Assembly: GCA_947561395.2 (NCBI GenBank)
Contig: OX387187.1
Coordinates: forward strand, 32,717,829 to 32,781,828
DNA: 64,000 nt
DNA from: Buxus sempervirens
Taxonomy: Eukaryota > Streptophyta > Magnoliopsida > Buxales > Buxaceae
Direction of reading: 5' to 3'
The translations under genes were made by a program, and so were the position numbers. Position 1 is the stretch's first letter. The number at the start of each line of letters is the position of its first letter. Below, piece by piece: positions 3,860 through 46,610 of this stretch. A model generated the notes under the pieces. That model made no database searches. It saw nothing but the letters and a program-made list of their open reading frames with translations, and was not told the DNA's origin.

Positions 3860-3860
3860 A

Positions 3861-14099: not shown

Positions 14100-15040
14100 A
14101 ATGTATCATAAGGAGCCATGGGTACCAGGCGAAATAAGCCAAAGGTACTGCTCCAAATAACGATGGGTACCTGCCGAGTTAAGCTTTAGGTACGCCCGAA
14201 GAGCTCCCCAAAAAACATTTTCGTAGTCAACAAATAAACCTAAGGTACCCCACAAATCAGATTAAGGTACCCCACTCTTAGCCCAAGGTACCACATATAA
14301 GCCTAAGGTAGCTCCCATATAAACCTAAGGTACCCCATGGTAAGCCAAACCCACTCACGAAAATTAGCCTAAGGTACCCCCTAAACCTACAGTACCCACA
14401 ATATAAGCCCAAGGTATCCCCAATATAGGTCTAAGGTACTTCCTGAAATCGTGATTCGGCGATTTGTCCTGAGACCTAATCGCTACGAAACAGAGACAAT
14501 GTTTCACTGCTTACAGTTAATCGCAAATCTGCGATTCGTCGTCTGATTAATCGCCGCACCTAATCGCCAGGTCACGATTAATCCTGTACTTAATCGTGAT
14601 GAAAATCTTGGGAAGTAAGGCTTAGATTCCTCTCCCCTCCCCAATTAATTCATAATTGGTGGGTTACTCAAGGCTTAGGGGGCTGGTACCTAAGGCTCAC
14701 TTGTTTGTACCAAGGCATTTTTGGGGTGTACCTAGAACATTTTGGGTGGGGGTGGGGGGGGAGGATATTTGGGGATACCCAAGGCTTATTTGTGGGGTAC
14801 GAAAGCCTTATTTTGTTGGGGGTACCGAAGGCTTAATTGGGTTTTGGTAAGCCAATTTGTAGGTGTACGTAAACCAATTTAGGGGGCCTATTTGTGGGTA
14901 CCCAATTCTTATTTGTGGGGTACAAAATGCATATTTGTGGGGTACGTAAGGCGTATTTCAATTTACATTTTGATTTTATAGATGGCACATGTAAATAGTC
15001 ACATTGCAAAGTTTTTTTTATCAATTTATGTATTTATTTG
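14100..15040. repeat. MULE-1 spacer hairpin 1: GGTACC arms around a GATTAATCG core
   Basis: No gene. Left part (14,115-14,440) repeats a 'taagcctaaggtacccc'-like unit every 20-40 bp. The middle (14,450-14,600) holds several ATTAATCG/CGATTAAT units. The right part (14,660-14,990) repeats the complement, 'ggggtaccTaaggctta'-like. The whole can fold on itself. It ends just before the Ulp1 gene start. Confidence 0.8.
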
Positions 15041-15047
15041 TAGATAA

Positions 15048-18000
15048 ATGGCACCAAGCGGGGAAGGAGTTCGCAATAGATGTAGTCCTCAACGACTTCT
15101 AAAAATTATCAAAAGGTTGAACGAGTCCCAGAAGCTAGCTGTTAGAGAAATTGGGCTGGGAAGCCTTCTGGATATGACGATTAAACACTGTTATAAGGGC
15201 AACATTGTGTCCTTATTGGCTTCATTTGATCCCGAAAAATGTTGCCTTGAAGTAAGTGGAAGGACGTTTGAGATATCACCTCCTGATGTTCAGCGGATAT
15301 TGGGGGTGACCTCTGCCGGGGAGAGTATGGAAATCGATGAGGTGGAAAATGACCTCACAGAATTAAAGAAAATGTATTGTGATGATAAAGGTAAGATACC
15401 TTTAGGAGAGCTGGAGAGAAGACTGCAAGAGAAGGAGACGGCGGATGAAGATTTTTTGAGGCTTTTTGTATTGCTTGCATTGGGCTCATTTTTATGCCCT
15501 CAAGCTAAGCCGGAGGCCAACACAAAGTTCTTAAATCTCATAATGGATATGGAGGGACTCCGTACCCTCAACTGGTCGAAGTTGGTTCTTGATTGGCTCA
15601 TTGCTGCAATCCGCCGATACAAGGAGAAGCACCAAATATATGTCGGTGGTTGTTTGGTTTTTCTAAAGGTAAATTATTGTTATACACACATTTCATATAT
15701 TTGGTATGCTTAAATTGTAATGGAAGAAATGTTTAATCAATCGCAGATGTTCTATTATGAATGCTTGCGCATGGATGGGAGCGCGATAGAGTTGGATGCA
15801 ACAGCTCCTCTCATCACCGTGTGGAATGATGAGGATGTGTTGGAAAGGGAGAAAGAAGGAAAGGAAAAGGACATGAATATTCCGGAACATATTGAATATG
15901 AAAATGTTCCGGAGTCCGATAAATCAAAGGGGAGGAAGAAGGTATATTATATTGTATTGTATTTATATTTTCGAATAGGGGGTACTCAATATCAATATTC
16001 ATTATACGTACATGGACATAAATTTTACTTGATTATGTGTTTTAGGAGGATAAACTGAGGGCAGCGATAAAGAAGCTAACAAAGGTAGTTGCTGCCCTTC
16101 AGCGTGAGGTAGCCAAATCCCCGAGATTGAAGGCTTTGGAGAAGGAGGTAATGGAAATCGGTTTTTGTCATTATTCATTATAAGTTCCAGATCTTATAGA
16201 AATGCAAATGTTTGTGGCTTGATTTGTTTAGGTGGAGAGATTGAAGTTGATGATAAGCAATCTTGGAGTAGGGCAAGCTGAACTAAGAGATATGGTTCTC
16301 GAGCTTGTTGGATATGCTCGGCTACCCTACCCCTGAATGTCCACGTGAACCATTTGAGGTTCCAGTGAACGTTGCTTCTGCACCGGAGGGCCCTTGCCCG
16401 GTGTCGCCGATGGAAGATATTGAACCTAGGGCGGAATGTATCCCGGATCCAACAGCGGGAGAATATGAAGGTTCAATCGTTCCATTTCAACCCGTTGAGG
16501 CTCCGAGATTGAAACGAATGAAGATTCCCTGCAAGGCAAAAAGAAGCCCTTTTACAACCATCACCGGGGAGAAAAAGAAGAGGGCCAGAAAGAGTAAGCA
16601 ACCGCTCGATGCCGAGAGGCCAACGCAAACAGTAAGTAGTATATAATTGGATGTCTAATTGCATGTCAACCATTCATGTAAAACTTTACCATAGTATATT
16701 GAAGAGCAAAATTGTCGATGTAATGATCATGTGACCTACATGAAATATATTTCAGGTACCATCTTACGATGATGATCGTGCGGAGGCTAGGTTGTTGCCG
16801 GATCTGAACACTGCAGATCCGTCCATACAGCCATTGGTATGTTTGTTCTCAGTTTTTCTAAAGGAATTGTTTTTGTTTTTCGGTTAGAATTAGGTTGACA
16901 GCCATATATTCATTTTTTGGAATTTTTAATAAACTTGTAGGCAAGCGAACCAGTGGATGCATCTTCTAGTAGGACGCCTGTGGATGCTGGAAGCGCGGTC
17001 TGCAACTATGCATTCCGTAAGGACCTCGATCCAGAGTACGTACTTTCGCATATTTATGTTTGACGCGTTGTTGCTTTGTAAATTGTTGCGTATGGTTTGA
17101 CTGTTTCTTTTGTGGGATATATATGTAGCGAGGTTTTGGTGAGATTCTTTGATGTCTTCATTGCCCGCAGTGAGTTCGAATGTTTGAAGCCTGAGAAATG
17201 GGTTACCAACTGGGTAGGAGTCTAACAACCTAAGTATCTTGTCAAATCGCATAAATATTTGGATTCTTAGATTTTATTTTTTTCTATGTAGATCTTGGAT
17301 TGCTACATGCGGATGCTGAATTTCCAGGAACAGCAGGTTGGAGGCCCATGTTACTTCTTCCTGTCAGATATTGGGGTAATTATTACGACATTCTTCAAAA
17401 GAATTTGACACTGTCTGTAATACTCCTGTTGAACCTATATTATAACTTTTCAGACTTTTTGCGCGGCAGAAGAAAACCGAGAACTTACCAGACTTAATGA
17501 TCAATTTGATCCATCGTACCTACTGAATATAGTGAACTACAAAATGGTAAGCTTAACTCACCATTGTTGCTTGGATCTTTTAATAGGGTAGGGCTAATAA
17601 ATATGTTTGTATGCAGTTGTTTTTCCCTATATTGGAGCAAGAACATTGGTACATGTGTGTTGTTGACATGAATAAAAAGAAAGTCTTTTTTTTGAACTCG
17701 ATGAAGGTGTGGAGAACCCGTGAAGTTCTCACTGGAGTGGTAAGTGATCAGCGTAATAATTTCTTGTGTCACTAATGTTGTTATTAAGTATCAATTTTTA
17801 TATTTCAGCTAAAAGCAGTAGATATTATATGCACCTGGCAATGGGAAAAGCAAGTTTTAGTAAGCAAATTTCCAAGGACGAAAGCAGAGGCTCTTAAGCT
17901 TCCTCGGCAAGGCAACCCGTACGTTTTCCACCTATTCTTTCTTTTCTATACTTACTACGATATGATATTAATAGCATTAACTTGTACTCGCATCTTTTGT

Positions 18001-18262
18001 AGCCATGACTGTGGAATCTTCGCCATGAAGTTCGCCGCTTTCTGGAGAGGAGAACTTTCTCCTCCATTCACGCAGGTACGCTACAACTCCTAACCTATCC
18101 AGTTGTGTTTTCAAAATCTCCAAATGATCACATTATTAATATAGTTTTGTTAATTTTGAATAGAATGATATTCCGGGCTTCAGAAGAAGCATTGTGAGTG
18201 AGATGATCCTCCACGAAGAAAACACGGTGAAGGATGATATTGTGAAGAAGAGTTCTACCTAG
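15048..18262 (+). CDS. MULE-1 DUF1985/plant-mobile-like + Ulp1-type cysteine peptidase, 13 exons
   Basis: Exons: 15,048-15,668; 15,747-15,941; 16,046-16,147; 16,232-16,631; 16,756-16,836; 16,941-17,035; 17,129-17,213; 17,292-17,375; 17,454-17,546; 17,617-17,739; 17,809-17,918; 18,003-18,075; 18,164-18,262. All have GT-AG borders and the phases fit, except exon 4 (400 nt), where the frame slips by one base near 16,300 (before 'LDMLGYPTPECP'). About 719 aa. The N-terminus (RCSPQRLLKIIKRLNESQ..., GLGSLLDM, VQRILGVTSAG) is the domain also found at 47,787-48,389. The C-terminus is Ulp1-like: 'EQEHWYMCVVDM' (His), 'VFFLNSMK' where the family has Asp, 'PRQGNPHDCGIF' (Gln and Cys). Such peptidases cleave SUMO/ubiquitin-like conjugates. 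The Asp-to-Asn change and frameshift make activity doubtful. Confidence 0.85.
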
Positions 18263-19540
18263 GGGGAGAGTTCGATGTATTAACATTTTTATATTATACA
18301 TGCATCACACTACAAACTAAAATTTTAATTTTTGGGGAATCTGTATGTATTTATTTGAGGACAAGGGCGCACAAGGATGTTCCTGTAATGAATGCTGTAG
18401 CTGAATCAAGCATTCACTTGGATTTTACTTTTATGGCATGTTTAGTTTTTTATGATGTTTCACGATCATATTTTTGTAAAGTATTGTGTACATAGGACAT
18501 TGTATCCATTGAATAAAAGCTTGGTTATTTTGATTGCTTAAGTTCTGCCACAGATTCGTCAAACTCGTTGATCGTAAATTATGCCAAATTTTAAAACAAG
18601 TTACTATACATTAGGTACTCCCCCCCCAAAACAAAATGAAGGTACGGTTCGTGTGAAGTTTAAGGTAACCCCGTAACCGGCACAATGTACCACCCCCACC
18701 CCATATAAGCTTAGGTGTCACCTAGTAAGAGTTGCGTACACGCCGAAATAAGGCCAAGGCGCCCATGAAATAAGCCTAAGTTACATCAGCAAATAAGCCA
18801 AAGTACCCCTAAGTAATACCCAGGTACCCCCAAAATTAATATTAAGGTAACCCATAAGTAAGCCGAAGGTACCCCCAAGTAGGAACTGATAATGAACAAA
18901 ACGCGCTGACGTTAATCATTAACGCCCGCACGTTGCAACTTTAAAGTGCACAGTACGCGCGAGCGTTACCAGGAAAGATTCGCGCGTTGAATGTGCTCCC
19001 ACTATTTTGTACGTGTGGGTACCTTCGGGTTTTCAGTGGGGTACCTCAAATTTACCTTTGGGGTACCTAAGTGTTACTTGGAGGTACTCTCCCCTTAATT
19101 TGGAGTATTTTTTGTGGATAAATTAAGGCTCGTGTGGGGGGTACCTTGGGCTGATTTGGGGGATACGTAGGCACGTTTGGAAGGGTATCTCAAGATTAAG
19201 ATTAATATAAGCTGACTTTTTTTGCATTCCCCGTCTTCCCACGGCCTTCGTTGCAGATTTTAATCATTTCGTATAATACCTTAGTCTTGTAGGTGGAAGT
19301 TCATTACCATAGGCTAATATAACCAGCAACTTCGATTGGTTGTTTTGCATGTACACGCATTACGACGTGCTAGACCCAATGTGTGTGTATTGGGGAGATA
19401 GAGGAATATGACAAATGAAAGCTAAGACCAAACAATATTTGCTTTGCATGCACTTATCGCAATGTTTTACAGGCACATAAGTAAAAAAAGATGGTCAAAT
19501 AAGATGCATTCGATACTCAGATGACATGAAAAGAGGTTCA
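18263..19540. repeat. MULE-1 spacer hairpin 2: GGTACC arms around an ACGCGCG core
   Basis: 3' flank of the Ulp1 gene (to about 18,600), then 'aagccNaaggtacccc' units (18,610-18,885). A core follows at 18,890-18,990 with paired 'acgcgctgacgtt', 'aacgcccgcacgtt' and 'acgcgcgagcgtt' motifs, then inverted 'ggggtaccttNgg' units (19,010-19,195). No gene seen. Confidence 0.75.
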
Positions 19541-19543
19541 AGA

Positions 19544-21426
19544 CTATGGGGCAGGCCCTGCTGGATCAGGAACTTTGTGTGCAGGCTCAAGGGGTTCAAG
19601 CAACAAATGTTCATCTCGAATGTACTCCGCATCACTTGGAGGAATATGCTCTCCAACGACACCTTGAGAAGCTGCATCGACAACTATCCTCCGTTCTCCC
19701 TTGTCCCTATTCAGCCTGTGAAGCTCCTGATTTTCCAATTCAAAGTGCTTCATGGCCCGGCTGTAGTCTTGTTGCATCTCCAAATATATCTCGTTCAGCC
19801 TGATCTGCTTCTGATGCACTGCTTTTAGTGTGTCATCAGAATTCCATACTGTCGACCTCACCCAACTCAACTTGCTGTCAATTTGTGCAAACTTCGGCTT
19901 AATCACTTCTCGTACATCCTTTCTCACAGAGTAGGTGTCACTTTCTACGTTCTGAAGAAGATGTTCCATCTTAGCAACGTGGCGATCAGTTTCATGCTTG
20001 TATGCAAGCTGACCATCGTACAATTGTTTTATCTGCTGCTTCATCGTCTCCTGGTTCTCAAGAAGTAGCTTGGTTTGATTCATCAACTCACATTGCATGC
20101 CCATAACCTGTGAAAGGATTGATGCGAGTCCACGAGGAAATTGGGAAGAAGTTGTTTGGTCTATAGGAGCAGCAGTAGGAGCAGGCGTCGATGAGGATGG
20201 AATATCATGTTCCATAGGTTGATCATGTGTAGCAGACTCCAGGAGAGGAATATCATGCTCATGTCCTATAGAAACATTGGGGGGAGGAGATGGAGGAGCA
20301 GGAGCATCTTCACCAGCAGTGGGAGGAGATGGAGGAGCAGGAGCATATTCACCAGCAGGGGGATGAGATGGAGGAGCAGGAGCATCTTCACCAGCAGGGG
20401 GAGGAGATGGAGGAGCAGCAGCATCCTCACCAGCAGGGGGAGGAGATGGAGGAGAAGGCGCATGGACCCCTGAAACAGGGGGAGGGGGTGGAGGAGCAGG
20501 AGCATCTTCACCAGCAGGGGGAGGAGATGGAGGAGAAGGCGCATGGACCCCTGGAACAAGGGGAGGGGGTGGAGGAGGAGGATGAGACTTGTTGTATTGC
20601 CCCTTGGACTTATTATATGTTGCAGTATTGATAGGAGGAAGGAGAGCAAGTAACTCATACTCGAGGAAGTCAATTTGATGCATCTTGACTATCTTTGCAA
20701 TGGCACACCCGAGAGGAAGTCCACACCTACGTTTGGTATCGAGAAAACAGTCAAGCATAGTCGAAATCATGATGGTGGGAACATCAATTGAATGCCTGTT
20801 GACCAATGCATAAAGCAAGAGTGCCCTCATAGGAGGCACAGTTGATCTGTGACTCACCGGCGCAACGTTAGAGCATTGGATTTTGTATATGAATGAGGTG
20901 TCAAATGTAAACTTGGAGGAATCCAGAGCTTTGCCCTCATAGTCCCCCTCCCTCTCAGTGGTCAGTAAACAAGCAGCCACTTCATTGAGCAATTGTGGTA
21001 AGGGAGCATCAACATACGGGAATTCAGGATTCTCAACTCTCGGAATACCTAGGGCCCCAGCGATGGTATCAGAATCTACATGGATGGGCTGCCTTCTGAG
21101 AGAGGTATCGAAGGATGGACCGTCTGCGATGTTGTGGATGTTTGAATAGAATTCATATACTAGGTGTTGGGATGGGAGCAGGAAGTTGGTGAAGAGGTTA
21201 TCCCATCCTCTCCCGGTAAATGCTGCACTAATAGACTCGGGGAAGTCTTCTAGAATAACCCCTCTTTCAAGCAAGATTTGTCTGTGGCTGACATCATTCT
21301 CGTACAGCTTCTTGGCCTGCCGATCGATGAAGATTGAATTATCAAATGAATCAGTCCTGCGTTTCTTATTGGCTGTCCTGGAGGATTTCTTAGGTTTAGA
21401 AGATGAGGCTCTGGTCTTAGGGCCAT
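19544..21426 (-). CDS. MULE-1 putative plant transposon protein A, proline-repeat and coiled-coil form
   Basis: Minus strand. The main exon runs from about 21,426 (an AG acceptor precedes 'GPKTRASSSKPKKSSRTANK') down to the stop at 19,544; an upstream exon is expected and not identified. Order: basic Ser/Lys leader; the conserved domain ('RGWDNLFTNFLLPSQHLVYE' to 'YKIQCSNVAPVSHRS', 'MRALLLYALVNRH', 'CGLPLGCAIAKI'); a tandem proline block with repeats of PPSPPPAGEDAPA (about seven units, 20,275-20,580); then a long charged heptad-like C-terminus ('LENQETMKQQIKQLYDGQ', 'MEHLLQNVESDTYSVRKD') that looks coiled-coil. No catalytic motif is visible and its role is unknown. The frame is open throughout. 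Confidence 0.8.
20275..20582 (-). repeat. In-frame proline-rich tandem repeat
   Basis: Units of about 39 bp encode PPSPPPAGEDAPA with variants (EDAAA, EYAPA, VPGVHAPS). They lie inside the ORF at 19,544-21,426. Open frames on the opposite strand here are shadows. Confidence 0.9.
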
Positions 21427-22080
21427 CTAAGATTTCAGAAGAAGAGAGGAAGAAAAATAAATATGCACAAAACAACACATAGCAAACGATAATGTTAGAC
21501 ACAGAAAAGATGAGTGCTACCGAATGCAAATAATATAGAATGTGAATAATATGAATAATTGTGTGGAAAAAACCCACTCCCTATATACATAAAAAAAAAC
21601 CCCAACACTTGAGGAAAAAGTGCAGGCGTTATTCACGCGCCAGGGAGATAACAATAGGGATGTGTACTTGTCAAAGGCTTATAGGAAAAGTGAATAGTAA
21701 CTTGATTGCAACCGATAATATAAACCATTCCGACGAAGATAAACCAAAATGTACCTCTTCAAGACATTAGAATAAACACATAGATCGGAAACCCTAAATG
21801 AACAAATTAATACCCTAATCGTAACATATAAAATCAAAGCAGTAAAGTTCGTAAAGCATCTCGTAAGTCCTACGAACCAGAAATATAGGCTTTGAAACTC
21901 TTCCAGAAGAGAAGTGGTACCCACCCTGAGAAGACTTTATCGCAATGAAGATGAAGCGCTACGGATGGCTTTGATTCGCATGGACGAAATAACGCGCCAG
22001 ACCTGTTTCTTTGTAAATATAGGCAAACGCCCGAACGCACGCGCCCAGCACGTGCGCGCGTTGATATTAAATATGTGCCA
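21427..22080. other. 5' region of plant transposon protein A; no other gene seen
   Basis: Probable promoter, 5' UTR and first intron of the minus-strand gene. Weak A/T-rich sequence; I see no tRNA, conserved ORF or array. Confidence 0.4.
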
Positions 22081-22395
22081 AAACATCAGGAATTCTTCAA
22101 AGGGTACCTTCGGTTTATGATTGGGGTACCCCAGGCAAAATGTGGGGATACCTCATGCAAAAACGCGGCGGTACCCAAACCCGAAGCGAACGTCCGAGCG
22201 TTCACGAGAACGTGCGCGCGTTGATATTAAATATGTGTCGTCCCCAGAGCCTCTTAACTTTTTTAAAGTGTCCCAACGGGTTTTGTTCACGAGAACGTCC
22301 GAGCGTTCATGTATGTACATTTGTATATGTGTGTACACATGATTGTACACATGTGTGTACATGTGTACACATGTACATGTATATATGTGTACACA

Positions 22396-24420
22396 TGTAC
22401 CCAGGTCTGTACATGTGTACACATGTACATGATATATGTGTACACAAGTACATGTTCTTTAACGTGTACATGTACGGACATGTGTGCACATGTACACACA
22501 TGTCTACATCTGTTCAAATGCATGTAAATGTACATGTATGTGTACAAATGTACACACATGTACATGTGTGCTCATATTGACATGTGTAAGCGTGTACACA
22601 TGCACACACATGGGCACATGTGTGTACACACACGCACATGTGTACACATATACACATGTGTAAATGTGTACACAGATGACAATGTCCATGTGTACATTTG
22701 TAAGGTACATCAGCAAACAAGCCAGAGGTGCCCCCAAATGATAACTTACGGTAGGCACAATTACGAAAACAAGTACGTCATAGGTACCCCACATAAAACG
22801 TGGGTACCCAAACAATAACATGACGGTACCCCATACTGATGGCGAAGGTACCCAATATAAGGAATTACTAGGAAACATTAACGCGCGGACGTTAAGGTCC
22901 AACGCGCGAGCGTTAAAGCTATTAATGCGCGTCCGACAGCTGTCTTCTTCGGCAGGAACGTTCGCGCGTTCATGACCAACGTCCGCGCGTTGACGTCTCT
23001 TCCACTTTCCTTCTACAGGGTACCTTCGCTTTTAAAACAGGGGTACCTTCGTATTATATCCTTGGGTACCTTATTATTATTTGGGGTACCTGTGTCCTAC
23101 ACTAATTTACGCACCTGTGCTTGTACATACATGTGTACAAATACATGAAAGCAGCCGATACACATCAAAAAATGTACTAACATGTGTGCACAGATGACAA
23201 TGTCATAGGAACCCCAACTAATACGTGGGTACCCAAGGATAGGAAATGAAGCTACCCCACACGTAAGGCGAAGGTACCCAATATGAGGAATTACTAGGAA
23301 ACGTTAACGCGCGGACGTTAAAGTCGAACGCGCGAGCGTGAAAGTTATTATTGCGCGTGCAACAGCTGTCTTCTTCGGCAGGAACGTTCGCGCGTTCATG
23401 ACCAACGTCCGCGCGTTGACGTCTCTTCCACTTTCCTTCTACAGGGTACCTTCGCTTTTAAAGCAGGGGTACCTTCGTATTATATCCTTGGGTACCCCCC
23501 TTATATTTGGGGTACCTGTGTCCTACACTAATTTACGCACCTGTGCTTGTACATACATGTGTACAAATACATGAAAGAAGCCGATACACATCAAAAAATG
23601 TATTAACATGTGTGCACAGTTGACAATGTCATAGGAACCCCAACTAATACGTGGGTACCCAAGGATAAGGAATGAAGCTACCCCATACGTAAGGCGAAGG
23701 TACCCAATATGAGGAATTACTAGGAAACGTTAACGCGCGGACGTTAATGTCGAACGCGCGAGCGTGAAAGTTATTAATGCGCGTGCGACAGCTCTCTTCT
23801 TCGACCGGAACGTTCGCGCGTTAGAGACCAACATCCGCGGGTTAACGTCTGTTGCCCTTTCCTTCTACTGGGGTACCTTCGCCTTAACACCTGGGTACCT
23901 TCATATTATATTTTGTGGTACCTTAGGTTTAAGTGGGGTACCTGTGGCCTACCCTAATAATTGCTTCGGTACATGTGTCTACTTGTGTACACATACATAC
24001 AAGCAAGCCTATACACATCAAAGAATGTACTTACATGTGTGTACACAATTACACACATGTGTGTGCGTGGGTATACGTACATGTACACAAGTACATGTTC
24101 TTGTACGTGTTTACAGGTACAGAAATTTGTAGACATGTACAGACATGTGTGTACATGTACACATGTGTACATGTGTAAACATGTATGTACATGTACATGT
24201 GTACACACATGTACCTGTACCTGTGTACACACATGAACATGTTTACAAATGTACACACATGGGCACATGTTTACACACATCTACATGTGTGCACATTGGT
24301 ACATGTCTACTCATATATAAATGTACATGTTTACACATATATGAGTACACATGTACACACATGTCTACATCTGTTCAAATGCATATAAATGTACATGTAT
24401 GTGTACAAATGTATGGTTAG
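22396..24420 (+). repeat. Left arm of the long inverted repeat
   Basis: Pairs with 25,640-27,146 in reverse orientation. The outer part (22,396-23,160) and its mirror (26,390-27,146) are almost identical: translated mirror frames of 132 residues at 22,504-22,902 and 26,634-27,032 differ at one residue. The inner part (23,940-24,420) pairs with 25,640-26,030. A ~430 bp direct duplication (23,100-23,530 and 23,531-23,960) occurs only in this arm. Confidence 0.85.
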
Positions 24421-28230: not shown

Positions 28231-28805
28231 ATTTGTATGTATTGAAGGTTCAAAAATACGTGCACATATCTTACATGAGTCACATTCATAACGTGACATG
28301 AATGTTATAAACTCTCACATCATTCAATACCTTTCCCATGATTTCTAGACACATTATTATATCATAAAAATATAATATTTTCATACAGCAAGTCGCTGTT
28401 TCATCAGGGTTAGGTCCCATGCGTAATCGGAACATGGCGATTAAGCATGCGATTAATCTATTGATTTGTACGACTAATCGTGCGGCCGTATGTATTATTT
28501 GTATGCGCACAAGCGAGGGTTTATGTTTGGGTGTATAAATAGAGGGTTTCGCTCCACTTCGTACTCACGAGTAATCTAGGGTTTCCTACACATGGGTCCC
28601 CTTATTTCACTGTTCTCCTGCTGCCTCTCGCCTCCAAATCACGATTAATCTACGGTATACGCACTTCCTGTTTCTTCCAGGGTTCTCCAAGTCTGTATAC
28701 TCTCCAACTCAAGGCCAAATATACGGGGTTTACGGTTTGGCTCCACCAAGTTTCCACTGTGAGTTGTGTCGAACATTGTTTTGTTCTCTGTCATTTTCTC
28801 AAATC
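28231..28805. other. 5' region of plant transposon protein B
   Basis: Contains a short GATTAATCG-like cluster (28,410-28,500), a TATA-like 'tataaatag' near 28,534 at a plausible promoter distance, and a leader up to the ATG at 28,806. No other gene seen. Confidence 0.5.
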
Positions 28806-36199: not shown

Positions 36200-36560
36200 A
36201 ATCCGGTGGCTCACAAACGGTATGGGCTGATAGCGTCAAGCGGAAGAGGAAGGCGAAGAAGTTGAGGTTGAGGAGTACGATGGAGGAGAAACAGAAGTTG
36301 ATGAAGAAGAAGAAGAAAATTTTGGGGTTTTGGGGAAGAAGAAGAATGTCAGAAGTCGAAACCCCATCTCGAGTGAAATCTCAAAACCGCGAAGCATGTT
36401 CGGTTGAAGGAAGCAATATACAATCAAATCTCGAAACCCCATGTCCATGGCCCTGGTTTAGCTTGCGTTTTTTGGGGAAGGAAAGGGCCGTAGAGGGTTT
36501 TGACGAAACTCAGGAGTGGAACGTTTGCATTGGTAGGGGTTTTGGACGAATCTCCTCAAG
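36200..36560 (+). other. Possible coding fragment near the left end of MULE-2
   Basis: An open frame from 35,950 includes 'TVWADSVKRKRKAKK', which faintly recalls a short Lys/Arg-rich mitochondrial ribosomal protein motif. An overlapping frame reads acidic (Glu-rich) through the same stretch. The region could be a captured host exon or just purine-rich subterminal DNA. I do not assign a gene. Confidence 0.2.
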
Positions 36561-36639
36561 GTATGAACCTATTGTGGCTAATCATTTTTGGGTATGTTTA
36601 TCAAAGATTTTCCCTAATCGGTTTTCCTCATAACCATTC

Positions 36640-37290
36640 ATTGGAATCGCCTGAAGCTCATCGCTTTATTGATCGACGTGTTCGACTAGAAGGCGATTAA
36701 TCGAACAATGAACACATTTTTCATCCAATAAATCGAGTAGAAGTCGATTAATCGGTTAATGAACTTATTGTTCAATGTTATTTGGTGTGTTTTTCGTAAT
36801 GCTGTGTTTAGTATAAAGATGTTTGTGGGTAGCATGTTGACTCTAAAGACTCTTAATGGGTAAGAGAGATGATGTCAAAGTTTTTAAAAAAATTTAAATA
36901 CATTTGTTTAAAATTTATGAATTAGAAGGCATAACAAGGCCACTTTAGCTGACAAAAGCCTAGAAATTTGAAATATTAAACTTATGTCATTGAAGAGAAA
37001 TATAATTGTAGGGTTATTTAACCAATATCATGGCTAGGTAATTTAGGCTTTATCTAACAATGAAATGGTCAAGTTGGTCATTGTAAAATAAGATTGTAAT
37101 AGTTCCATTAATGGGTTAATTAACCTATTGTTCAATGTTATTTAGTGTGTTTTTTATAATTATGAAATATTTATAAAACGTTTCAGTGCTTTGAATGGTT
37201 AACTCGACACGGCTATTTTATCTATTATTAATGCGATGGTGCTCTATTCTGAAAATTGAGGAAAATAAATTTTTGAAATTGGTGAATGAA
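36640..37290. other. Upstream region of the MULE-2 Ulp1 gene
   Basis: A few CGATTAATCG-like motifs (36,660-36,760), then A/T-rich sequence with a repeated 'tgttcaatgttatttRgtgtg' block (36,768 and 37,130). Further 5' exons of the Ulp1 gene may lie here but I could not identify them. Confidence 0.4.
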
Positions 37291-37292
37291 AT

Positions 37293-39260
37293 GTAGGTAA
37301 GCCTCAACGAAGACGAAGTTGTCCAACACACATGGCAAGTGGAGGAAATGACAGAAGCATGAATGGATTGCCTGGCAATCTATCTCAGGTGGTTAACTAG
37401 TATTCTATATTCACACTTGAATCTAATTTTAACACTTGATTATTGATACAGATATTACAGGAACAAATGGACCAGATGGCAGCTGCTGCTCAGGAGATGC
37501 AACGTCATTGCACGGAATTGAAGTTGTACCTCCAAAGACATGGAGACACACCAACCCATGGTGAACAGCCGGATTCAGCCCATGATTGGTGTTCATCCCA
37601 TGAGTTGAGATGATCAGCATCACTGGTTGAAGCCGTTGCTGATGAGCAAGGGTCACCAGTGCAAATTGCTGATGAGATTGCGTCACCAGAACCGAAGGTT
37701 GTTTCTCCAAGTAAATTCAAGCGAATGATTAAGAAACCCAAAAATTTGTGTTCTCCGTTCGTTGTCCGACACAAATTCCCTCCGTTGAAGCCTGATGAAA
37801 AGCGGGTTGTCGAATATGTAAATGAATTGCGTCCAACAAAGTAAGTAATTCTTTATATATATTGTTTCTGAGAGAACATGAAGTTAATGTGTGGAGATGC
37901 TTATATTTGTGTGCCAGATCGACGGAAAACACAATTAGTTTTCCCTCAATGTAGTGTTTCAATTGTGACATGAATTTCTTATTATTGTGTAGCTTGGTTG
38001 TTGTGGATTATATTGGAATGCATATTACAGTGGAAGAGATGCATTGCTTGGCAGATGGATGTTGGGTCGGCAGCATGGTATGTTAGTTTTATCTCGTTGT
38101 ATAGCTAGTTAATTCCACAATCATATTAACGGTTATATCTATTATGTATTATGTAATATAGGTAATAGCAGCATATGCTATTTGCCTTATCAACCGACAA
38201 GGTTTATATTCATCAAGAGTCACAAAGCATTATTGTTCTCCCGTTGTCACTGTAAGCATATTTGACTATTCTAGCTTGCATTAAATTTGTGTAATAAGGT
38301 ATGCATATGCGTTTCTAATTCTATTGTAAATCATAGGATATAATCATAAACGGCAAAGGGGAGATTGAGATTGATACGATGTATAAGAAGTACTTCTCTC
38401 TGAAAACAATTGGGTTTCTCCTCCGTGAATGTGAAATGGTAAATTAAGTATGTTTTTTATAGAAATAAAAAACATTTTGTCTTATAATGTTCTTCCAATC
38501 ACATGTTTATATTGGGCTTCTCCTCCTAATTAATAGTTAATGTTTTATGTAGATTTTTCTACCAGTATGCCAAAGGAACCATTGGTTCCTTGTAGTATTG
38601 AATGTGAAAGGAAAAAGATTTGAATTGTTGGACTCGAATAGTAGTTCTAGACAAGGTTTGCAAGGGGAGGCGGTCAATAAACTTGTAGGTTTGCATTTCC
38701 ATTGTTAATTTGTAATTTAAATTTACTAAGCATCCTTCTATGTTGTCGTGGAAGTGTTTGACTTAGATGATAGTGCAAGATATTTTAATTTGGCAGGCAA
38801 AATTTTTTGAGGACTTTTTTGAGACATTTGTCCACGGAAGACCGCTTGGGATTCCATCATGGGATAGGGAGTATGCATCAGTGCCTCATCAAAAGAACGG
38901 GTAAGATAATGTCTTTGTGGATGATTGGTGTTCTACACTGTTCTAATACGTTTATGTTTTGTTTACCCCGAACTTGTGATGTAGGTTTAATTGTGGTGTT
39001 TTTGTGTTGAAGTTTATGGAGTTTTGGGATGGGCATGTGCTAAACCCTCAATTTGGACAGGCATGCTTTCTTTTTCCAGAACTTAATTACATCATATGCA
39101 TTTATTATCTTATAGATGATTGTTTGATGCTAAGTTAATGTTATTACTTGTTATGAAGCAGGATAATATCCCATACTTTAGGAAAAAGGTGATGGCGGAT
39201 TTGGTGTCGGATCCAACTAACAGGTTAAAGGATAAGGTGTTACATCGTCATATTGGTTGA
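37293..39260 (+). pseudogene. MULE-2 Ulp1-type cysteine peptidase, one in-frame stop
   Basis: Likely exons: start ATG 37,332 (or an upstream exon joined at 37,293) to 37,388; 37,452-37,840; 37,993-38,077; 38,162-38,251; 38,337-38,438; 38,553-38,684; 38,797-38,900; about 38,986-39,060; about 39,163-39,260. An in-frame TGA follows 'WCSSHELR' in exon 2 (37,611-37,613); afterwards the frame stays open to the end. Catalytic set: 'QRNHWFLVVLN' (His), 'FELLDSNSSS' (Asp), 'PHQKNGFNCGVFVLKF' (Gln, Cys), all present. The intron after 'NPQFGQ' starts with GC instead of GT. Unlike MULE-1, this gene lacks the N-terminal mobile-like domain, which sits in a separate gene at 46,969-48,951. Expected activity: cleavage of ubiquitin-like conjugates. 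Confidence 0.83.
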
Positions 39261-40611
39261 TGCTTGGAGAAGACACTTCCATGTTTGGGGTTGTATAGTG
39301 TTTTGTATTCATAGGAACATGAACTACTTTACAATGTTTTGGTGTTATCTTTTTTTGGAGTGATGCGATGTTTGGGGTTGTATAGTTTTTTTTACTCATA
39401 GGAATATCAACTACTTTTAATGTTTTGGTTTTTTTCATTTTTGGGAGTGATGTGAACTTCATGTACTTAGAAAGTTTTGGTGTTTATATATGTCTTGTTC
39501 AAAGTGCATTTACAGTTCAAAGCATGCTGTAGCAAGTAATGAAGGCATTGTATTAATCGCTGAAAAAACAATTAACCTGTTATTATTTTGATTAAGCGCA
39601 GGACAAATGTTGATCAATCGATAACAAATCCGATTAACCGTAGGTTCATCGATTCATCGATCGAAATGCACCATATAACCATTAGACGAGTATCACAAAG
39701 TTCCGATTAATCAAATAATATTACGATCAATCGTAATTAAATCGATTAATCGGTCACTCATAAACCCCAGAAAAAGGTCACTCTGTATTTCGTATCGGCA
39801 ATTTCGCGATTCATCTGCTTGACTTTGAATCGATTAATCGTAATTACGATCAATCGTAATTAATGTTCCGATTAATCGAATAATATTACGGTCAATTCGA
39901 TTAATCGGTAGTTAATCCTACATAAACCCCAGGAAAAAGGTCACTCTGTATTTCGTATCGGCAATTTCGCGATTCATCTGCTTGACTTTGATTAATCGTT
40001 AATCATTTCGATTAATCGTGAATATGTACATGCAGTGGCCAAATTAGATAATAGTCGATTAGTCCAGGGTTAATCCTGCATGGTGAAGAGACTGAAGGAC
40101 GCGCTCTGTTTCTTAAATTGATAATTTACCGATTGATCGATATTTCAACGATCAATCGAGATTAGTTTCCAATGAATCGAATTTGTACTTTTGAGTCGCG
40201 ATCCTTAATCATTCAAATTCCGATTCATGTTCCGATAAATCGATGTATATTCCGATCCATCGATGTCTTAATCGTAAACATTTCAAATGGACAAATGTCC
40301 AACTAAAAATAAAGACACAAACATAAACAAAAGATCCATTTGATAGCGCACAAATATTCCCATTTAAACATACCACATTATATTGCTTACGTGCGGGAAC
40401 ATAAAAAAAAAGTCATAAAGTTATCAAAGTTAAACAAGTCAAGTTCATAAAGTTAAAAAAGTCAAGTTATCAATTAAACAAGTCAAGATAACCAAAAAAA
40501 CATCTCCCACATCTTCACTGACATGAACTACACAACCTCCTCTGCTGCTGCACCTGCATCATCATCTGCATCGGACTCTAGCAAAGGTGGTAGCGATGGC
40601 TCCTGTTGACT
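39261..40611. repeat. MULE-2 spacer rich in CGATTAATCG, with two ~160 bp tandem units
   Basis: 39,540-40,290 holds many copies of CGATTAATCG, GATCAATCG and TTCCGATTAATCG. A unit containing 'aggtcactctgtatttcgta' and 'cgattcatctgcttgacttt' occurs at about 39,770 and 39,930. 40,290-40,611 is the 3' flank of the next gene. No gene seen. Confidence 0.8.
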
Positions 40612-41838
40612 CTAGCAGGTATAAATGTGGATCACCACCCGCAACACCCGCTTCACTAGTCGCTTCAACCCTCCAAGCTCCTGTCTGACCTCCTCCTTGA
40701 AAACTGCAAATTCGTTAGCTTGTGGTTGTGAAGTCGACGCTTCTCCATGCATATGACCGAGGCCTAAACGCCTACCGTGGTGTGCACGTTGCAGATCTGG
40801 TATGGATGATGTAGAAGGCATGGATGATGTCGATGGTAGCTGGGGCCCCTCTGGTGCTACACCTGCCTCATGCTCCTGCTGAGAGCTTGATGATCTCCCG
40901 GTGTCCGTACGCTGATGAGGCAACGGATCTAAATACATGAGTTGGATGTTGGTCTTGGAGAGAGGGATTGAACAGACAGTAGATTCAACCGGACCTTGGA
41001 GACCATGTTGTTTGGCAAGTTGGGTCATCAGATAATCGAAAGGAAGAGATCTAGGATTGGATGTTGCTTTACTTCTACTGGCAGAGAGGATAAACTGACA
41101 AATGTGCTTGCAAATCAACATTGGCAGACACATTCGAATGCCCTGAACAACCCGATACAGGAGCATCACCATGGCAGGAGTCATGTCATACTTATTACCA
41201 CGCCTCAGGTACACATTAAATGTGAAGATGTGGTGGAGAATCCTATACTTTGGCATCATACTACCAGCAGTAAGGGCGGCTCTGTGCCACTCGGCGTTAT
41301 TCCCACAGAGGGAACGCGTTGTCTCCGCAAGGTCCGACTGGAGGGGGGGATCAAATGTGCGCACTTCATTACGCGGGATGTGCATCAATTCACTGATGCG
41401 GTCAAGGGTGACAAGGACAGCTTTACCATTTATATCAACTGCAAATGCAGGATCTGGTTCATGGGGAAGAGTTGTAACACGTGCATTCTCATAGAGACGA
41501 CACACGACCAACCTGTTTGCATCACCACCCCAGTCCAAAATACCCTCCCATCCTATTTTCTTAAGAAGTGGTTCCAAACCATATTTCGAAATTTGGTCTT
41601 TGAGTACAGCTTTCTCAACGACCAATGACCTTTGGATGCGTTGCCCACGCCCCCCAAGGGCAGCGGATGGTGCCTGTTCTGGAGACAACGAAGGCGAACT
41701 CGTAGCCCTGGCTACAGGCTGCTCAGTATCGTCTGGGTCATAGTCTGACCCAGACGGAGGGAGATCATGAGGGGGAGGAGATGGGGTAGGCATCATTGCC
41801 TTCTTAGCCTTACGACCTAAGGTTTTTCGTTTGGGCAT
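40612..41838 (-). CDS. MULE-2 putative plant transposon protein
   Basis: Intact single-exon ORF of 408 aa. It starts 'MPKRKTLGRKAKKAMM' (basic) and then has a Pro/Ser linker. The conserved domain runs from 'RSLVVEKAVLKDQISKYGLE' through 'GWEGILDWGG', 'ISELMHIPRNEVRTFDPPLQ', 'KYRILHHIFTFNVYLRRGNK' and 'MLLYRVVQGIRMCLPMLICK' to 'SLPFDYLMTQLAKQHGLQGP'. The C-terminal amphipathic part (EVRQELGGLKRLVKRVLRVV) is like that of MULE-1 protein B, so these two are close homologues in different elements. Function unknown. Open frames on the plus strand at 40,996-41,628 are shadows. Confidence 0.85.
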   Translation of the reverse strand: MPKRKTLGRKAKKAMMPTPSPPPHDLPPSGSDYDPDDTEQPVARATSSPSLSPEQAPSAALGGRGQRIQRSLVVEKAVLKDQISKYGLEPLLKKIGWEGILDWGGDANRLVVCRLYENARVTTLPHEPDPAFAVDINGKAVLVTLDRISELMHIPRNEVRTFDPPLQSDLAETTRSLCGNNAEWHRAALTAGSMMPKYRILHHIFTFNVYLRRGNKYDMTPAMVMLLYRVVQGIRMCLPMLICKHICQFILSASRSKATSNPRSLPFDYLMTQLAKQHGLQGPVESTVCSIPLSKTNIQLMYLDPLPHQRTDTGRSSSSQQEHEAGVAPEGPQLPSTSSMPSTSSIPDLQRAHHGRRLGLGHMHGEASTSQPQANEFAVFKEEVRQELGGLKRLVKRVLRVVIHIYTC

Positions 41839-42540
41839 GGTGGCTTTAAAGCAAAGACGTCAAGGCACAGACGAGAACAACAATGGAAGACACAAGCCCA
41901 TTATAGACAAAATCATCCAAGCATTCAAGTACGCGCAACACAAATGAGAAAGGCGCACGAAAGAAGATCAAAACCCCAAAAAACAAATTAAACAAACAAC
42001 AAACAATGTACACGAATCGTTAGTTCATTGGAAATGGAATGGAGCAAAGAAGTTGTAAAATCTTAGCACGTCTTACCAGAAGAAGAACTTCCACGATTGA
42101 CGCTATCTCCCAAGAAGAAGTCGACGCAAAAAACCCTAGGGACGGTGGAAAGGATGAGAAATGAGGCATGACAAATGAGAAGACGGTGACACTGGTACGC
42201 GCATCAAAAATATTTCAGAGAGTTAATCGCAAGGGTCATGTCAGTTGGAAGATATGCGCGCGAAACCAAGCGTCGCTTGGTTTCGCCACTTTCGATTAAT
42301 CGACAAAATCCCTTGATTCATCGGTTGTTTAAGTGACAAAATGATAATTGTACGGTTAATCGACTATCTTACGATCAACCACGAAATAAACGATTAATCG
42401 ATAAGTTGCCGATCATTGAATTTCAAACTGCCCCACGTAGTTAATCGTCATCGTTACGATTAATCAATATAGGATCGATCAAGTTCATAGGTCATTCTCT
42501 CTTCTCCGATTTATCAAAAATCTTTGCGATCAAGTGTATC
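41839..42540. other. 5' region of the MULE-2 plant transposon protein gene
   Basis: Probable promoter and leader of the minus-strand gene to about 42,240, then CGATTAATCG-like motifs (42,290-42,480). No other gene seen. Confidence 0.5.
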
Positions 42541-43310
42541 GGAAATGTATCCCACGATGATGTAATTATATCCTTCTTTGATTAATCGTAAGATACCATC
42601 CCTTTCTTCAGGTTGTTCCCACGAACCTCTATAAGTATCCTTCGATTGCTTAAAGAGTATCTTACGAAGAAATATTTTTATCCTCGATGCTAATAAGATA
42701 TCCCCCAATTACGACCCGGATATAAGTGTAGTAATCGTGGGATACCATCTTACGCTTCGTGAATTGCCAACAATAATAAATAAGTATCCCCTGAAATACG
42801 TAATTGTATCCCACGAATAAAAAATGTATCCACCGAATAATGAAATTGTATCCCAGAAAGGCATTAATCAAAATTTACTCAATCGATGAATCGAAAGTGT
42901 CTCCCCAAGTACACGTCGGATATAAGTGTTGTAATCATGGGATACCATCTTACGCTTCATGAATTGCCAACGATAATAAATAAGTATCCCCTGAAATACG
43001 TAATTGTATCCCACGAATAAAAAATGTATCCACCGAATAATGAAATTGTATCCCAGAAAGGCCTTAATCGAAATTTATTCAATCGATGAATCGAAAGTGT
43101 CTCCCCAAATACGCGTCGGATATAAGTGTTGTAATCGTGGGATACCATCTTAACTTCGTGAATTTCCAACGATTAAAAATATGTATCCCATGAAATATGT
43201 AATTGTATCCCACGAATAAAAAAGGTATCCACCGACTAATGAAATTGTATCCCACGAATATAAAACGTATCCTTCGATTTTTAAAATTGTATCCCACGAA
43301 CGGTTAATCG
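42540..43310. repeat. ~200 bp tandem repeat with GTATCCCACGA motif
   Basis: A unit containing 'ggatataagtgtNgtaatc', 'gtgggataccatctta', 'aattgtatcccacgaataaa' and 'caatcgatgaatcgaaagtg' recurs at about 42,718, 42,918 and 43,118. GTATCCCACGA and its complement TCGTGGGATAC make internal inverted pairs. The ORFs here are repeat translations. Confidence 0.88.
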
Positions 43311-43334
43311 CTTTTTAAATCTTCGATAAAGAAT

Positions 43335-43836
43335 TCGATTCGATTAATCGAAACTTGCCGATGAAAGACTGGGCTATTAGCTATCCATGATAACCGATTA
43401 ATCGTAACGGATGACCGACTAACCATTAATGTTTGATGCATCGACGAAGTGCCGACTCAAGTTACAGAGTGTCCATTTTCTAAGATAATTTGCAGGATTA
43501 AGGATCAATAAATCAATTACTGCCGACGAAGGACATAGCGAATAGCAACCGATGATAACTGATTAATCGTAACGAATCACCGACTAACCAAGAATTCTTG
43601 ATTAATCGATGAAGAGCTGATTCAAATTACTGAGTGTCGTTTTTGTAAGACAAATTTCAGGACTAAGACCTGATTAATCGAGAATTGCCGATGCACAACT
43701 GGGCGCATAGCAACCGATGGTAACCGATTAATTGTAACGAATGACCGACTAATCATAAAGTTTTGATTAATCAATGAAGAGCCGATTCAAATTACTGAGT
43801 GTTGTTTTTGTAAGACAAATTTCAGGACTAAGGCCC
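43335..43836. repeat. ~165 bp tandem repeat array, part 1
   Basis: Units carrying 'attgccgatgcacaactggg', 'gcatagcaaccgatggtaac' and 'gattaatcgtaacgaatgac' start at about 43,343, 43,518 and 43,682. The array is interrupted by the solo LTR and continues at 46,335. Confidence 0.88.
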
Positions 43837-44439
43837 TGTAACGCCCCGGATCCGTGTTGTTCAATAAAGATATAACACGTCTCACGGAGGTTAGGCAAGG
43901 ATCGTTAATCAATTTATGATCGCTGGATAATCATATAGCTATAACCTGACAGAGTGCACATTTCCATTTATGCAAAATTGTAACATTTAAACTGAACTAG
44001 AATTGTATGGTTCAACCCCAATTAAACTTTAATACATCTCAATTAATTCAAAGTTCTCAAATTCAGAACAGATAACCTACTAGTCTAAGGAAGGTAATAG
44101 TAATCCTCCTCCCTATAAGCCTCAGCAGGATCTACCCCAGTAATCGCCTCACCACGAGTATCTGAAAAACAAACAAGACAAACAACGGAGTGAGATACGA
44201 ATATCTCAGCGAGTAGCACATGCATGCAGAAATAGTTGATCACAATTTAAACTATGCATCGACAAACACTTAATATGGTTAAACAACCAACATCAATTCT
44301 CAAATCGAAATCAAGACTTGTTCTAATCAAACAAATCACATCTTAGTTAAGTACGGCAACACATCGATTGGTCAATGTCATGACTATCGTTTAGTTGATA
44401 AATTAAACATGCCAAGTAGACACTCCACACCTCCATGTA

Positions 44440-44575
44440 CACAGTTCCGGCCTACTCAGGGTTTCGGATACTCTGAAATGACGGCCTACTCAGGGTTTCG
44501 TCATCCAATGCAGGCCTACTCCCCGGGTTTCTGCACTGACAACCAGGCCTACTCAGGGTTTCTGGCTGCTCTACA
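44440..44575. repeat. ~33 bp tandem repeat inside the solo LTR
   Basis: Four units of the GGCCTACTCAGGGTTTC type. The plus-strand ORF across them (SGFRHP..., YSGF) is an artefact. Confidence 0.85.
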
Positions 44576-45174
44576 CCAGTCGTGGCAACACACAAGGCCA
44601 TGCAATTCCAACAACCAACAATAACATCACATTACTAAGCTTAAACATCTGGATCCAGGACAAGCTAGACCAAAACAGTAAAACATCGTATAATCTCAAT
44701 TCCAATATCAAAATAAAACCATTCATTCCACATCATGTAAAACTCATCACAATTCATCACCTGTCCCTCTGGACCAAGCAGTACCTCAAGTACTTTCAGT
44801 ATTTTCTCATTTCCGTAACACATGTCATTTGGAAGTAAAACTCAATTCATTCATACCAAGGAAATCTTTACAATACATTTAAAGTTTCCAAACAAGTGAA
44901 ACCAGAATAGAATAACTCCTCAATCAAAACAGTGTATAAAACAGAGGAAATGTAACTAGTAACTATTAGTGGTTTGGTATCCAGCACAACACTCATAATT
45001 AACCTAAACTCAACTTGAAAGCTTTTAAGAAGTTCACTAAATTTTCCTCTAATAATTTCCTAGGCAAAATAGATTCCAAGGTTCCCAAACAAGTGAATAG
45101 TGAAGTGGTTTAACCCTCAAGTAACCCAAATACTCTTAGTTAAATCAAATTTCCAATTCAGTAAGCAAAATAGG

Positions 45175-45430
45175 GTCTGCGCTCACTTCCTGAAGTGGGC
45201 GCGAGGTGAGCGCCGGTCGGCGGTAAGGAAACAGGTAAAAATATACCTAGCACTCACTCGACGCTAGGTGAGCGCGAGCTGAGCGCGAGACGGGTGCGAG
45301 GTGGGCGCGAGATTCGCGCGAGATGAGCGCCGGGTTTTCTAGTGAGCGCGAGCTGAGCACCAGGTTCGCGCGAGCTCGGCGGTGGGTAGTATTTAACGAG
45401 GCGCCTAACTCTTAGGTGGGCGCCAGTGAG
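45175..45430. repeat. GC-rich GTGAGCGCGAG tandem block
   Basis: Irregular repeats of GTGAGCGCGAG, GGGCGCGAG and GAGCGCGAG within the solo LTR. Composition is far above the surrounding GC content. Confidence 0.75.
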
Positions 45431-46334
45431 CGGATACCCCCTGTGATTTTCATTTCTCTGTTATTTCAAGATCTACATGACTGGCCGGTTTGTTTATCTC
45501 TGTAATTGTTCCACTACACTCCTAATACTCCCAGAAGACTTCCCAACCATATTTGGATTTAATCTAAACACTTTTAAATAGAAGATAAAATTCAATCTCC
45601 GAACTCTGTTCATGTCATTTCCAGAAAACCAGAAACCAGAAAACTCATACATCATTTAAGATACAAAACATGCATCAGAATAAGCTCACGAAAACCTCAA
45701 ACACAAAACCCAGTTGTAAATCAGTGCTACTCACCTGAATGCTGAATGCGCTTATTCCCGAATATATCAAAACCTCGGCCGATCACCACTCCGGCCACGC
45801 ACGCGAATGAAAAATCTCTCCAAACAAAACTTCTCGAGCAGAGAGAGATAACCCACTGAAGTTAAACTCCAAAATCCTTCCATTAGCCCTTGCGATGCTT
45901 GTTCTTCACGAGCAGAGCCCTAATCGCCACTCCAGCCGAAATCGCTCAATTCTCCTGATACTCAGACTAGCGAAAAAAATGTTTCCGTAAGTAATACGCA
46001 TATTTCCTTTAAACCCAAAACCCTACTTTCCCTATTTGTACTTGCGAGATGCATACGCCGCTCGATCAACCCTTTTAACCCCTTGATCCTTTGCATGCTC
46101 GCCCACCGGAAACACTACATGTTCCGCATCCACTTACGTTAATAAGCACACAACTATACTTTAATAATAATAATGATAATAATACGATTTTTCAGAAAAA
46201 TGGCTATATAACGCCTGTACATACGAGTATGGGCTAAGCCCTCAAACCACAAAATCACCTGATAAACACAGTTATATATATAAGAATAAATAAATAAACA
46301 AACAATAAAACTTACCAAAAATCAGGGTCTTACA

Positions 46335-46610
46335 GGCCCGATTCATCGAGAATTGCCGATGCACAACTGGGCGCATAGCAACCGATGGTAACCGATTAAT
46401 CGTAACAAATGACCGACTAATCATGAATTTTTGATTACTCGCAGACGTTCCGATTCAAATTCCAGCGTGTCGTTTTCCTGAGACTAATTTCAAGATGAAC
46501 ATCCAATTAATCGAGAATTGCCAATGCACAACTGGGCTCATAGAAACCGATGGTAACCGATTAATCGTTTATTACTAACGATTAATCATTGATTTGACGA
46601 TGCATCTAGA
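46335..46610. repeat. ~165 bp tandem repeat array, part 2
   Basis: Continuation of the array at 43,335-43,836: units at about 46,350 and 46,515. 46,610-46,968 is A/T-rich 3' flank with no gene. Confidence 0.85.

Follow-up and report, generated by a model that had tools for sequence, protein, structure and literature searches.

We analysed a 64-kb stretch of Buxus sempervirens DNA (contig OX387187.1; hereafter the window), plant DNA by its gene content, in which two Mutator-like elements (MULEs), E1 and E2, lie next to each other. The spacers between their genes hold dense arrays of short motifs, and these arrays are genuine, far above chance. The reading that we favour, and to which we give about an even chance, is that the arrays are targets of proteins encoded by the elements themselves, with anti-silencing as the likeliest purpose, in a variant resembling the VANC system of VANDAL elements. 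All tests were internal to the window, and counts outside an element refer to the rest of the window.

Motif arrays in the spacers of E1 and E2

Motifs were counted on both strands, with expectations from 50 dinucleotide-preserving shuffles per region; the E1 denominators were 12,083 bp of spacers and 9,055 bp of genes including introns. GGTACC had 87 of its 89 sites in E1 spacers (4.5 expected). One further site lay in E1 genes (16755, near an intron/exon border), one at 57292, and none in E2. The binomial value for this confinement was 2.7e-60, calculated over sites that are non-independent owing to duplication. ACGCGCG had 35/38 sites in E1 spacers (0.5 expected) and none in E2 spacers, and a longer CG box, AACGNNCGCGCGTT or its reverse complement, occurred at 27 exact sites, every one in E1 spacers. 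CGTTAA was weaker (33/47, 8.4 expected), its other sites being scattered. An earlier, sequence-only reading had described GGTACC, ACGCGCG and CGTTAA arrays as dense inside the first element and as avoiding genes; the counts bear this out, most strongly for the first two. An additional E1 array type omitted there, TGTACA/ACATGT, lies between the dyad modules described below (22304–27600).

The eight GTATCCCACGA sites all fell in E2 spacers. The word GATTAATCG gave 44 strand-counts, of which E2 spacers contributed 34 (0.1 expected) and E1 spacers 7, with one more at 28642, upstream of the gene C ATG (28806), and two at 52507–52508 near the right border of E2. These represent 30 distinct sites, 14 of which are palindromic CGATTAATCG and were counted twice. 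The motifs stand in tandem repeats that differ between E1 and E2, a comparison of two elements. The claim that each motif set is specific to its element and enriched inside it survived in part: within the window, GGTACC, the CG box and GTATCCCACGA were each dense in the non-coding DNA of one element, whereas GATTAATCG is common to both and so is not element-specific.

GGTACC is palindromic in its core only. The context was directional (GGGTACCT/AGGTACCC) at 61/89 sites, 14 sites were fully palindromic 8-mers, and the extended E1 site, GGGTACCT(TCG), joins a palindromic core to a directional context. Strict palindromes bound by a dimer, as previously proposed, were rejected in that form because the extended site is directional.

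Orientation was called from the bases flanking GGTACC (9/87 uncallable), and eleven mirror-image modules with GGGTACCT arms, each minus-then-plus, were found in three of the five E1 spacers, accounting for the majority of E1 sites. Ten have CG-type cores with inner gaps of 131–173 bp, and one, at the left end, is built around GATTAATCG. In two spacers (30.4–30.6 and 33.9–34.5 kb) the exact sites are all in one orientation; the right subterminal spacer has an inverted match to 14460–14565. The largest spacer (21581–28574) holds 63 GGTACC, 29 ACGCGCG and 86 TGTACA. At the heart of E1 there is also a 1187-bp inverted repeat (22391–27145, 95% complementary); a transcript across it might form long double-stranded RNA, perhaps attracting silencing.

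Site spacing was about 22 bp in E1 and 20/22 bp in E2, and 21–22 bp is near two helical turns. Among adjacent GGTACC gaps of 70 bp or less, 52/56 fell no more than 2.5 bp from a multiple of 21.7, as against 23% of the integers 6–70, with misses at 31, 33, 60 and 62. A period of 21.8 fitted best overall, and one of 11.0 when the 13 gaps from the other spacers were taken alone. Nine of 26 intervals between E1 CG boxes were exactly 21 bp, and no interval was shorter. E2 had 21 GTATCY sites in 42547–43289 with gaps of 20, 22, 43 and 44 bp, plus 83 and two of 92; all 17 gaps of 70 bp or less were within 2.5 bp of multiples of 21. Most of the sites stand in three 200-bp repeats.

Much of the array material is tandem or inverted duplication (426-bp, 200-bp and 165-bp units), and the TGTACA arrays resemble a degenerate microsatellite. 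Both features would suit satellite-like repeats that slippage and gene conversion have spread with no reader at all, an explanation that we consider quite unlikely. Because spacings inside duplicated units do not count as independent observations, the small E1 spacers matter. Those four alone contained 24 GGTACC versus 1.5 expected, and their top k-mers against a first-order Markov expectation were AGGTAC, GGTACC and GGGTAC, followed by CG and GATTA words. All five E1 spacers contain both GGTACC and ACGCGCG, three of them show the mirror layout, and the arrays avoid genes, all of which argues against a passive satellite.

Motif columns were also more conserved than linker. We aligned the eleven E1 modules, chosen by position, set the motif columns in one module and scored identity among the others; motif matches may themselves have anchored this alignment. 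Across all modules, motif columns were 0.85–0.86 identical versus 0.65–0.69 for the remaining columns, and in hand-picked diverged modules the values were 0.79–0.82 versus 0.52–0.61. No circular shift was as extreme in any of six tests (0/317–324 in each).

CpG observed/expected in the spacers reached 0.95 for E1 and 1.46 for E2, versus 0.59 and 0.61 in genes and 0.44 and 0.56 in flanks. Masking the motif words lowered the spacer values to 0.69 (E1) and 1.26 (E2), and thus most of the E1 excess sits in the motifs. At the CpG steps of the consensus, the eleven modules had 217 CG, 19 TG/CA and 38 other cells (274 in all); transitions per base at CpG sites (19/548) were below the non-CpG C/G transition share (75/1041). 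A heavily methylated old element is expected to lose CpG, and youth, selection or low methylation can each explain its retention.

Element ends and candidate reader proteins

E1 is bounded by 157-bp terminal inverted repeats (TIRs; 13568–13724/34863–35019, 97% alike), and its 9-bp flanks, GAAAACAAC/GAAAAGAAC, agree at 8/9 positions, a target-site duplication. The flanking sequence recurs without E1, in pieces at 54.9–56.2 kb, as a diverged paralogue lacking the element, its target site not cleanly preserved. With its FAR1 + MULE + SWIM transposase, TIRs and ~9-bp duplication, E1 has the features of Jittery/FAR1-type MULEs and not the absent or degenerate TIRs of the VANDAL type.

The ends of E2 are degenerate, as in VANDAL elements: inverted similarity links 36476–36622 with 52632–52774 (65%) and 37098–37251 with 52372–52523 (69%). 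We looked for exact E2 ends and found none, nor a credible target-site duplication; a single T-rich candidate was not believed. Because this similarity joins 36476–37251 to 52372–52774, E2 probably spans 36476–52774, and the PMD gene and MuDR-type transposase at 47–52 kb probably belong to it. The limit of 46610 given by the sequence-only reading was therefore rejected. Within the 165-bp GATTAATCG units of E2 there is an insert resembling a solo long terminal repeat (LTR; 43837–46334, TG...CA, 2498 bp) with a perfect 5-bp duplication, GGCCC; it contains tandem repeats with GGCCTACTCAGGGTTTC.

The VANC role had been assigned to the 'plant transposon proteins' (PF20167), and this assignment was not supported in that form. 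From its domains, gene A of E1 appears the better VANC candidate, because the match to DUF1985, which VANC proteins have, lies in this PMD-Ulp1 gene. Its exon 1 gave a DUF1985 match that is significant yet under the Pfam cut-off (5.1e-5; 23.7 bits, cut-off 35.1) and a PMD match (5e-4), and a longer piece gave PMD 2.3e-6, DUF1985 8.4e-5 and C48 7.9e-16; the middle part had no credible Pfam match. Both elements contain a C48 domain (5e-15 in E2), a feature of Kaonashi-type Ulp1 MULEs. The HMG-box protein reported earlier corresponds to a possible HMG box in the E2 PMD gene, a match under its cut-off (3.8e-5, 24.5 bits vs 25.4).

PF20167 may be a second candidate reader for the non-CG motifs. As a sure VANC homologue it was rejected, since hhalign of the PMD and PF20167 alignments gave a probability of 1.2% (E 0.044). 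With PF20167 pieces from 2.3–6.3 kb added, the score was 24.6 (probability 5.4%), while the best of 60 column-shuffled controls scored 19.6, and the two poor AlphaFold models (predicted local distance difference test, pLDDT, 41.5 and 40.5) both have a strand-strand-helix between helices in the same place. The link of PF20167 to the PMD/DUF1985 exon is thus weak and suggestive only. Genes C and F do encode the amphipathic C-terminal segments once offered in favour of a dimeric binder (18-residue moments: C 0.63, F 0.76, B 0.52; no control set). Gene B has a weak C-terminal DUF1664 match (0.0055) and about seven tandem 39-bp units (13 amino acids, proline-rich; TRF 20280–20544, span 20280–20582), which recall the tandem peptide repeats reported for VANC proteins. 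Two more PF20167 pieces on the minus strand at 2324–6331 (2.4e-12, above cut-off, and 8.7e-9, below) are probably one split gene of another element, and the k-mers of 1–12300 showed no motif array of the E1/E2 kind around them. Sequence searches of the PDB turned up no credible relative, with 0 and 2 rows at chance level, an NCBIfam search returned chance-level rows only, and viral contigs, the sole sequence collection scanned, held no accessory-protein relative.

By sequence comparison, the accessory set is better conserved between E1 and E2 than are the FAR1-type and MuDR-type transposases. In blastp, genes C and F shared 39% identity across 426 columns (1e-92 with composition correction off), the PMD exons 34% over 197 (1.9e-39) and the Ulp1 parts 28% over 142 (3.9e-19). 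In contrast, the transposase open reading frames (ORFs), compared without the E2 N-terminus, gave 23.5% over 51 columns for the catalytic domain (E 1.4) and 34% over 35 for SWIM (9e-5). The contrast, drawn from two elements, may reflect lineage exchange or simply different rates.

We propose that the spacers are predicted binding-site arrays whereby each transposon would mark itself for its own DNA-binding proteins, with protein-motif pairings that derive from presence and absence in two elements only. A DUF1985/PMD protein, fused to Ulp1 in E1 and split from Ulp1 and perhaps HMG-linked in E2, would bind the arrays cooperatively, as VANC21 does on YAGTATTAY arrays, and would remove silencing marks from its own element family. 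Element-specific forms of this reader could recognize GGGTACCT (E1 only) and GTATCCnnCGA (E2 only), while GATTAATCG may be read by a shared protein, for example the PF20167 C/F pair or the PMD protein. The E1 CG boxes would be read by the FAR1-domain transposase of E1, and local de-SUMOylation by Ulp1 is one possible route to lifting silencing.

More tentatively, in a reading that we hold to be less likely than not, the DUF1985/PMD reader, Ulp1, PF20167 and GATTAATCG could form an anti-silencing cassette that can move across MULE lineages whose transposases are very different, and new phased arrays would re-target it in each (GGGTACCT in E1, GTATCCnnCGA in E2). The FAR1-type transposase would keep its own boxes (AACG-N2-CGCGCGTT) central in most E1 modules, and PF20167 would on this view belong to the DUF1985/PMD fold as a distant member. 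Eudicot VANC genes are said to have gained and lost DUF1985, DUF287 and Ulp1 as they diversified, and their specificity reportedly depends on motif sequence, density and helical periodicity. The DUF1985-like and Ulp1 parts, motif density and near-helical spacing of E1 and E2 agree with that picture.

Known systems and competing explanations

In Arabidopsis, VANC21 binds YAGTATTAY arrays in non-coding VANDAL21 DNA, where motif density matters, and VANC-target arrays change by tandem repeat formation (Hosaka 2017, PMC5735166). VANC proteins carry DUF1985 and DUF287, and their variable regions contain peptide repeats in tandem (PMC5735166); some VANC genes carry Ulp1 (PMC13317346). E1 and E2 likewise have short motifs that are dense in non-coding parts, tandemly repeated and different between related elements (PMC5735166; Sasaki 2023, PMC10398659). 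E1 has an accessory gene with a weak DUF1985 match, and E2 combines degenerate TIRs with a transposase that its domains place as MuDR-type. In contrast to VANDAL elements, E1 has long TIRs, a FAR1-type transposase and mirror-image modules built from several classes of motif, whereas VANC21 motifs are described as running in a single orientation; both elements have PF20167 accessory genes and motifs unlike YAGTATTAY. The suggestion of a VANC-like system is partly supported, by motif-array anatomy, spacing, motif-over-linker conservation and a significant but sub-cut-off DUF1985 match; its assignment to PF20167 proteins is not supported in that form.

Ulp1 MULEs (Kaonashi/KIU; melon, rice, grapevine; PMC2528002, PMC6117577, PMC13317346) offer a second comparison. 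The C48 gene is reverse to the transposase, as in KI-MULEs, and E1 joins DUF1985-like and Ulp1 parts; the portions of those descriptions used here include no phased motif arrays or PF20167 partners. A literature search over titles and abstract openings, whose coverage stopped short of Sasaki 2022 (EMBO J), found no report of arrays in FAR1-type MULEs or of PF20167 in MULEs.

The arrays might instead bind the transposase, with FAR1 on the CG boxes, for transposition or transposase autoregulation, a role that subterminal repeats have in Spm/CACTA elements, or for a MURA-like hypomethylation of the TIRs, the accessory proteins being incidental. We regard this as unlikely, although the CG boxes themselves lend it support. 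ACGCGCG resembles the FAR1/FHY3 site CACGCGC (PMC8599713). The word reaches high density in E1 alone, the element with a FAR1 domain in its transposase; E2 has DBD_Tnp_Mut instead and lacks the word in its spacers; the E1 TIR tips read GCGCGCGG. MURA of MuDR and TnpA of Spm are reported alongside hypomethylation, the element's own protein being tied to that element's hypomethylation as we propose here; TIRs are named for MURA in that account, whereas E1/E2 sites fill internal spacers (PMC10398659). Exact CACGCGC, however, occurs just 6 times in the window (5 in E1 spacers), and no exact CG box lies at the E1 ends, with 25/27 in the gene B–C spacer and 2/27 between C and the transposase. Binding by the transposase would also leave GGTACC, GATTAATCG and GTATCC unexplained. 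The CG boxes were dropped as a VANC motif because reading by the FAR1 transposase accounts for them more simply.

A further possibility, which we judge improbable, is that the motifs, chiefly GATTAATCG, are promoter elements for host transcription factors. GATTAATCG does lie upstream of E1 genes A, C and the transposase and of the E2 Ulp1 gene, F and transposase (starts by eye). Other GATTAATCG arrays are at gene 3' ends (39.7–40.0 and 46.4–46.6 kb), the GGTACC number in the largest spacer far exceeds promoter need, and a host factor would not account for differing motifs in E1 and E2.

Several results weigh against the anti-silencing reading that we favour. The DUF1985 and PMD matches of gene A are under their Pfam cut-offs (35.1 and 34.9), its exons were joined by eye and its frame is unsettled near 16290–16340, the profile scan of the E2 PMD exon gave no DUF1985 match, and no DUF287 match was seen in the E1/E2 protein pieces scanned. 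This copy of E1 may be inactive, because one in-frame stop separates the two main transposase ORFs and the gene A frame is unsettled. Both AlphaFold models, built on shallow alignments, are unusable at their pLDDT, and the directional extended site weakens the dimer argument. Periods of 11 or 22 bp fit clearly better than one of 10.5 bp (0.57 and 0.54), so that exact helical phasing is not established; only 1/3 gaps in the right E1 spacer fit 21.7, and E2 spacing and much E1 spacing lie within duplicated units and are hence non-independent. The CpG level is non-diagnostic, as the solo LTR of E2 also has 0.90; E2 has 8 CGATTAATCA and 2 CAATTAATCG beside 14 CGATTAATCG, possible CpG decay, and CpG retention can be explained by youth or gene conversion.

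Feature coordinates and biological meaning

Gene models and starts in Table 1 were joined and placed by eye. Wall-associated-kinase-type domains (GUB_WAK_bind, WAK_assoc) lie on either side of E1, and duplicated receptor-kinase-type gene fragments at 12332–13519 and 54943–56085 (pieces 81–92% identical) form the host background beside it. A hAT transposase (58276–60366; BED, RNase-H-like and dimerisation domains) is present as two ORFs separated by a stop. Rfam and tRNA scans gave no match.

Table 1. Positions of the two elements, their genes and their motif arrays in the window.
Feature	Position	Strand	Details
E1, TIR MULE	13569–35018		~21.5 kb; ~157-bp TIRs, tips GCGCGCGGATCC
E1 left subterminal spacer, GGTACC arms around GATTAATCG cluster	14121–14958		10 GGTACC and 2 GATTAATCG in 13725–15047
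Gene A, DUF1985/PMD-like N-terminus, middle, Ulp1 (C48) protease	15048–18260	+	VANC candidate
Dyad module between genes A and B, degenerate CG boxes	18823–19145		6 GGTACC; self-inverted 18802–19088
Gene B, PF20167 protein (stop-to-stop ORF)	19544–21580	-	PF20167 1e-20
Large array with nine dyad modules, part of them in 426-bp repeats	22103–28076		1.2-kb inverted repeats, TGTACA arrays between
GATTAATCG sites upstream of gene C	28420–28650		sites 28450 and 28642
Gene C, PF20167 protein corresponding to gene F in E2	28806–30101	+	PF20167 1.7e-13
Partial module	30405–30600		CG boxes and one GGTACC arm; no exact-site mirror arm
E1 transposase, FAR1 + MULE + SWIM	31503–33773	-	FAR1 4e-23, MULE 1.8e-27, SWIM 8.1e-8
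E1 right subterminal spacer, GATTAATCG cluster and one-orientation GGTACC	33946–34454		5 GGTACC, 4 GATTAATCG
E2, degenerate-TIR MULE (probable extent)	36476–52774		outer limits approximate
E2 Ulp1 (C48) gene	37300–39261	+	C48 5e-15; exons joined by eye
GATTAATCG array of E2	39704–40018		exact sites
Gene F, PF20167 protein	40615–41838	-	PF20167 2.1e-16
E2 array, GTATCCnnCGA in 200-bp units, then 165-bp GATTAATCG units	42293–43832		mostly 20/22-bp spacing
165-bp GATTAATCG units resuming past solo LTR	46335–46600		repeat match
E2 PMD gene, possible N-terminal HMG box	46972–48980	-	PMD 3.2e-5, sub-cut-off; model by eye
E2 transposase, DBD_Tnp_Mut (MuDR-type) + MULE + SWIM	49425–51740	-	ORF pieces; MULE 1.5e-18, SWIM 1.3e-10, DBD_Tnp_Mut 6e-12
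CGATTAATCG in E2 right end	52507–52516		exact site

We concluded that E1 and E2 are probably sequence-specific anti-silencing MULEs and probably represent a new variant of that system. Sequence-specific anti-silencing is among the few known routes by which a transposon can free itself with little harm to the host. If our reading is true, it would not be tied to VANDAL-type MULEs, the accessory set could stay alike while the transposase differs, and the target motif would be exchangeable. PF20167, a family whose name says no more than 'putative plant transposon protein', would gain a possible role, and the protein-motif pairs would be candidate tools for locus-specific epigenome editing.

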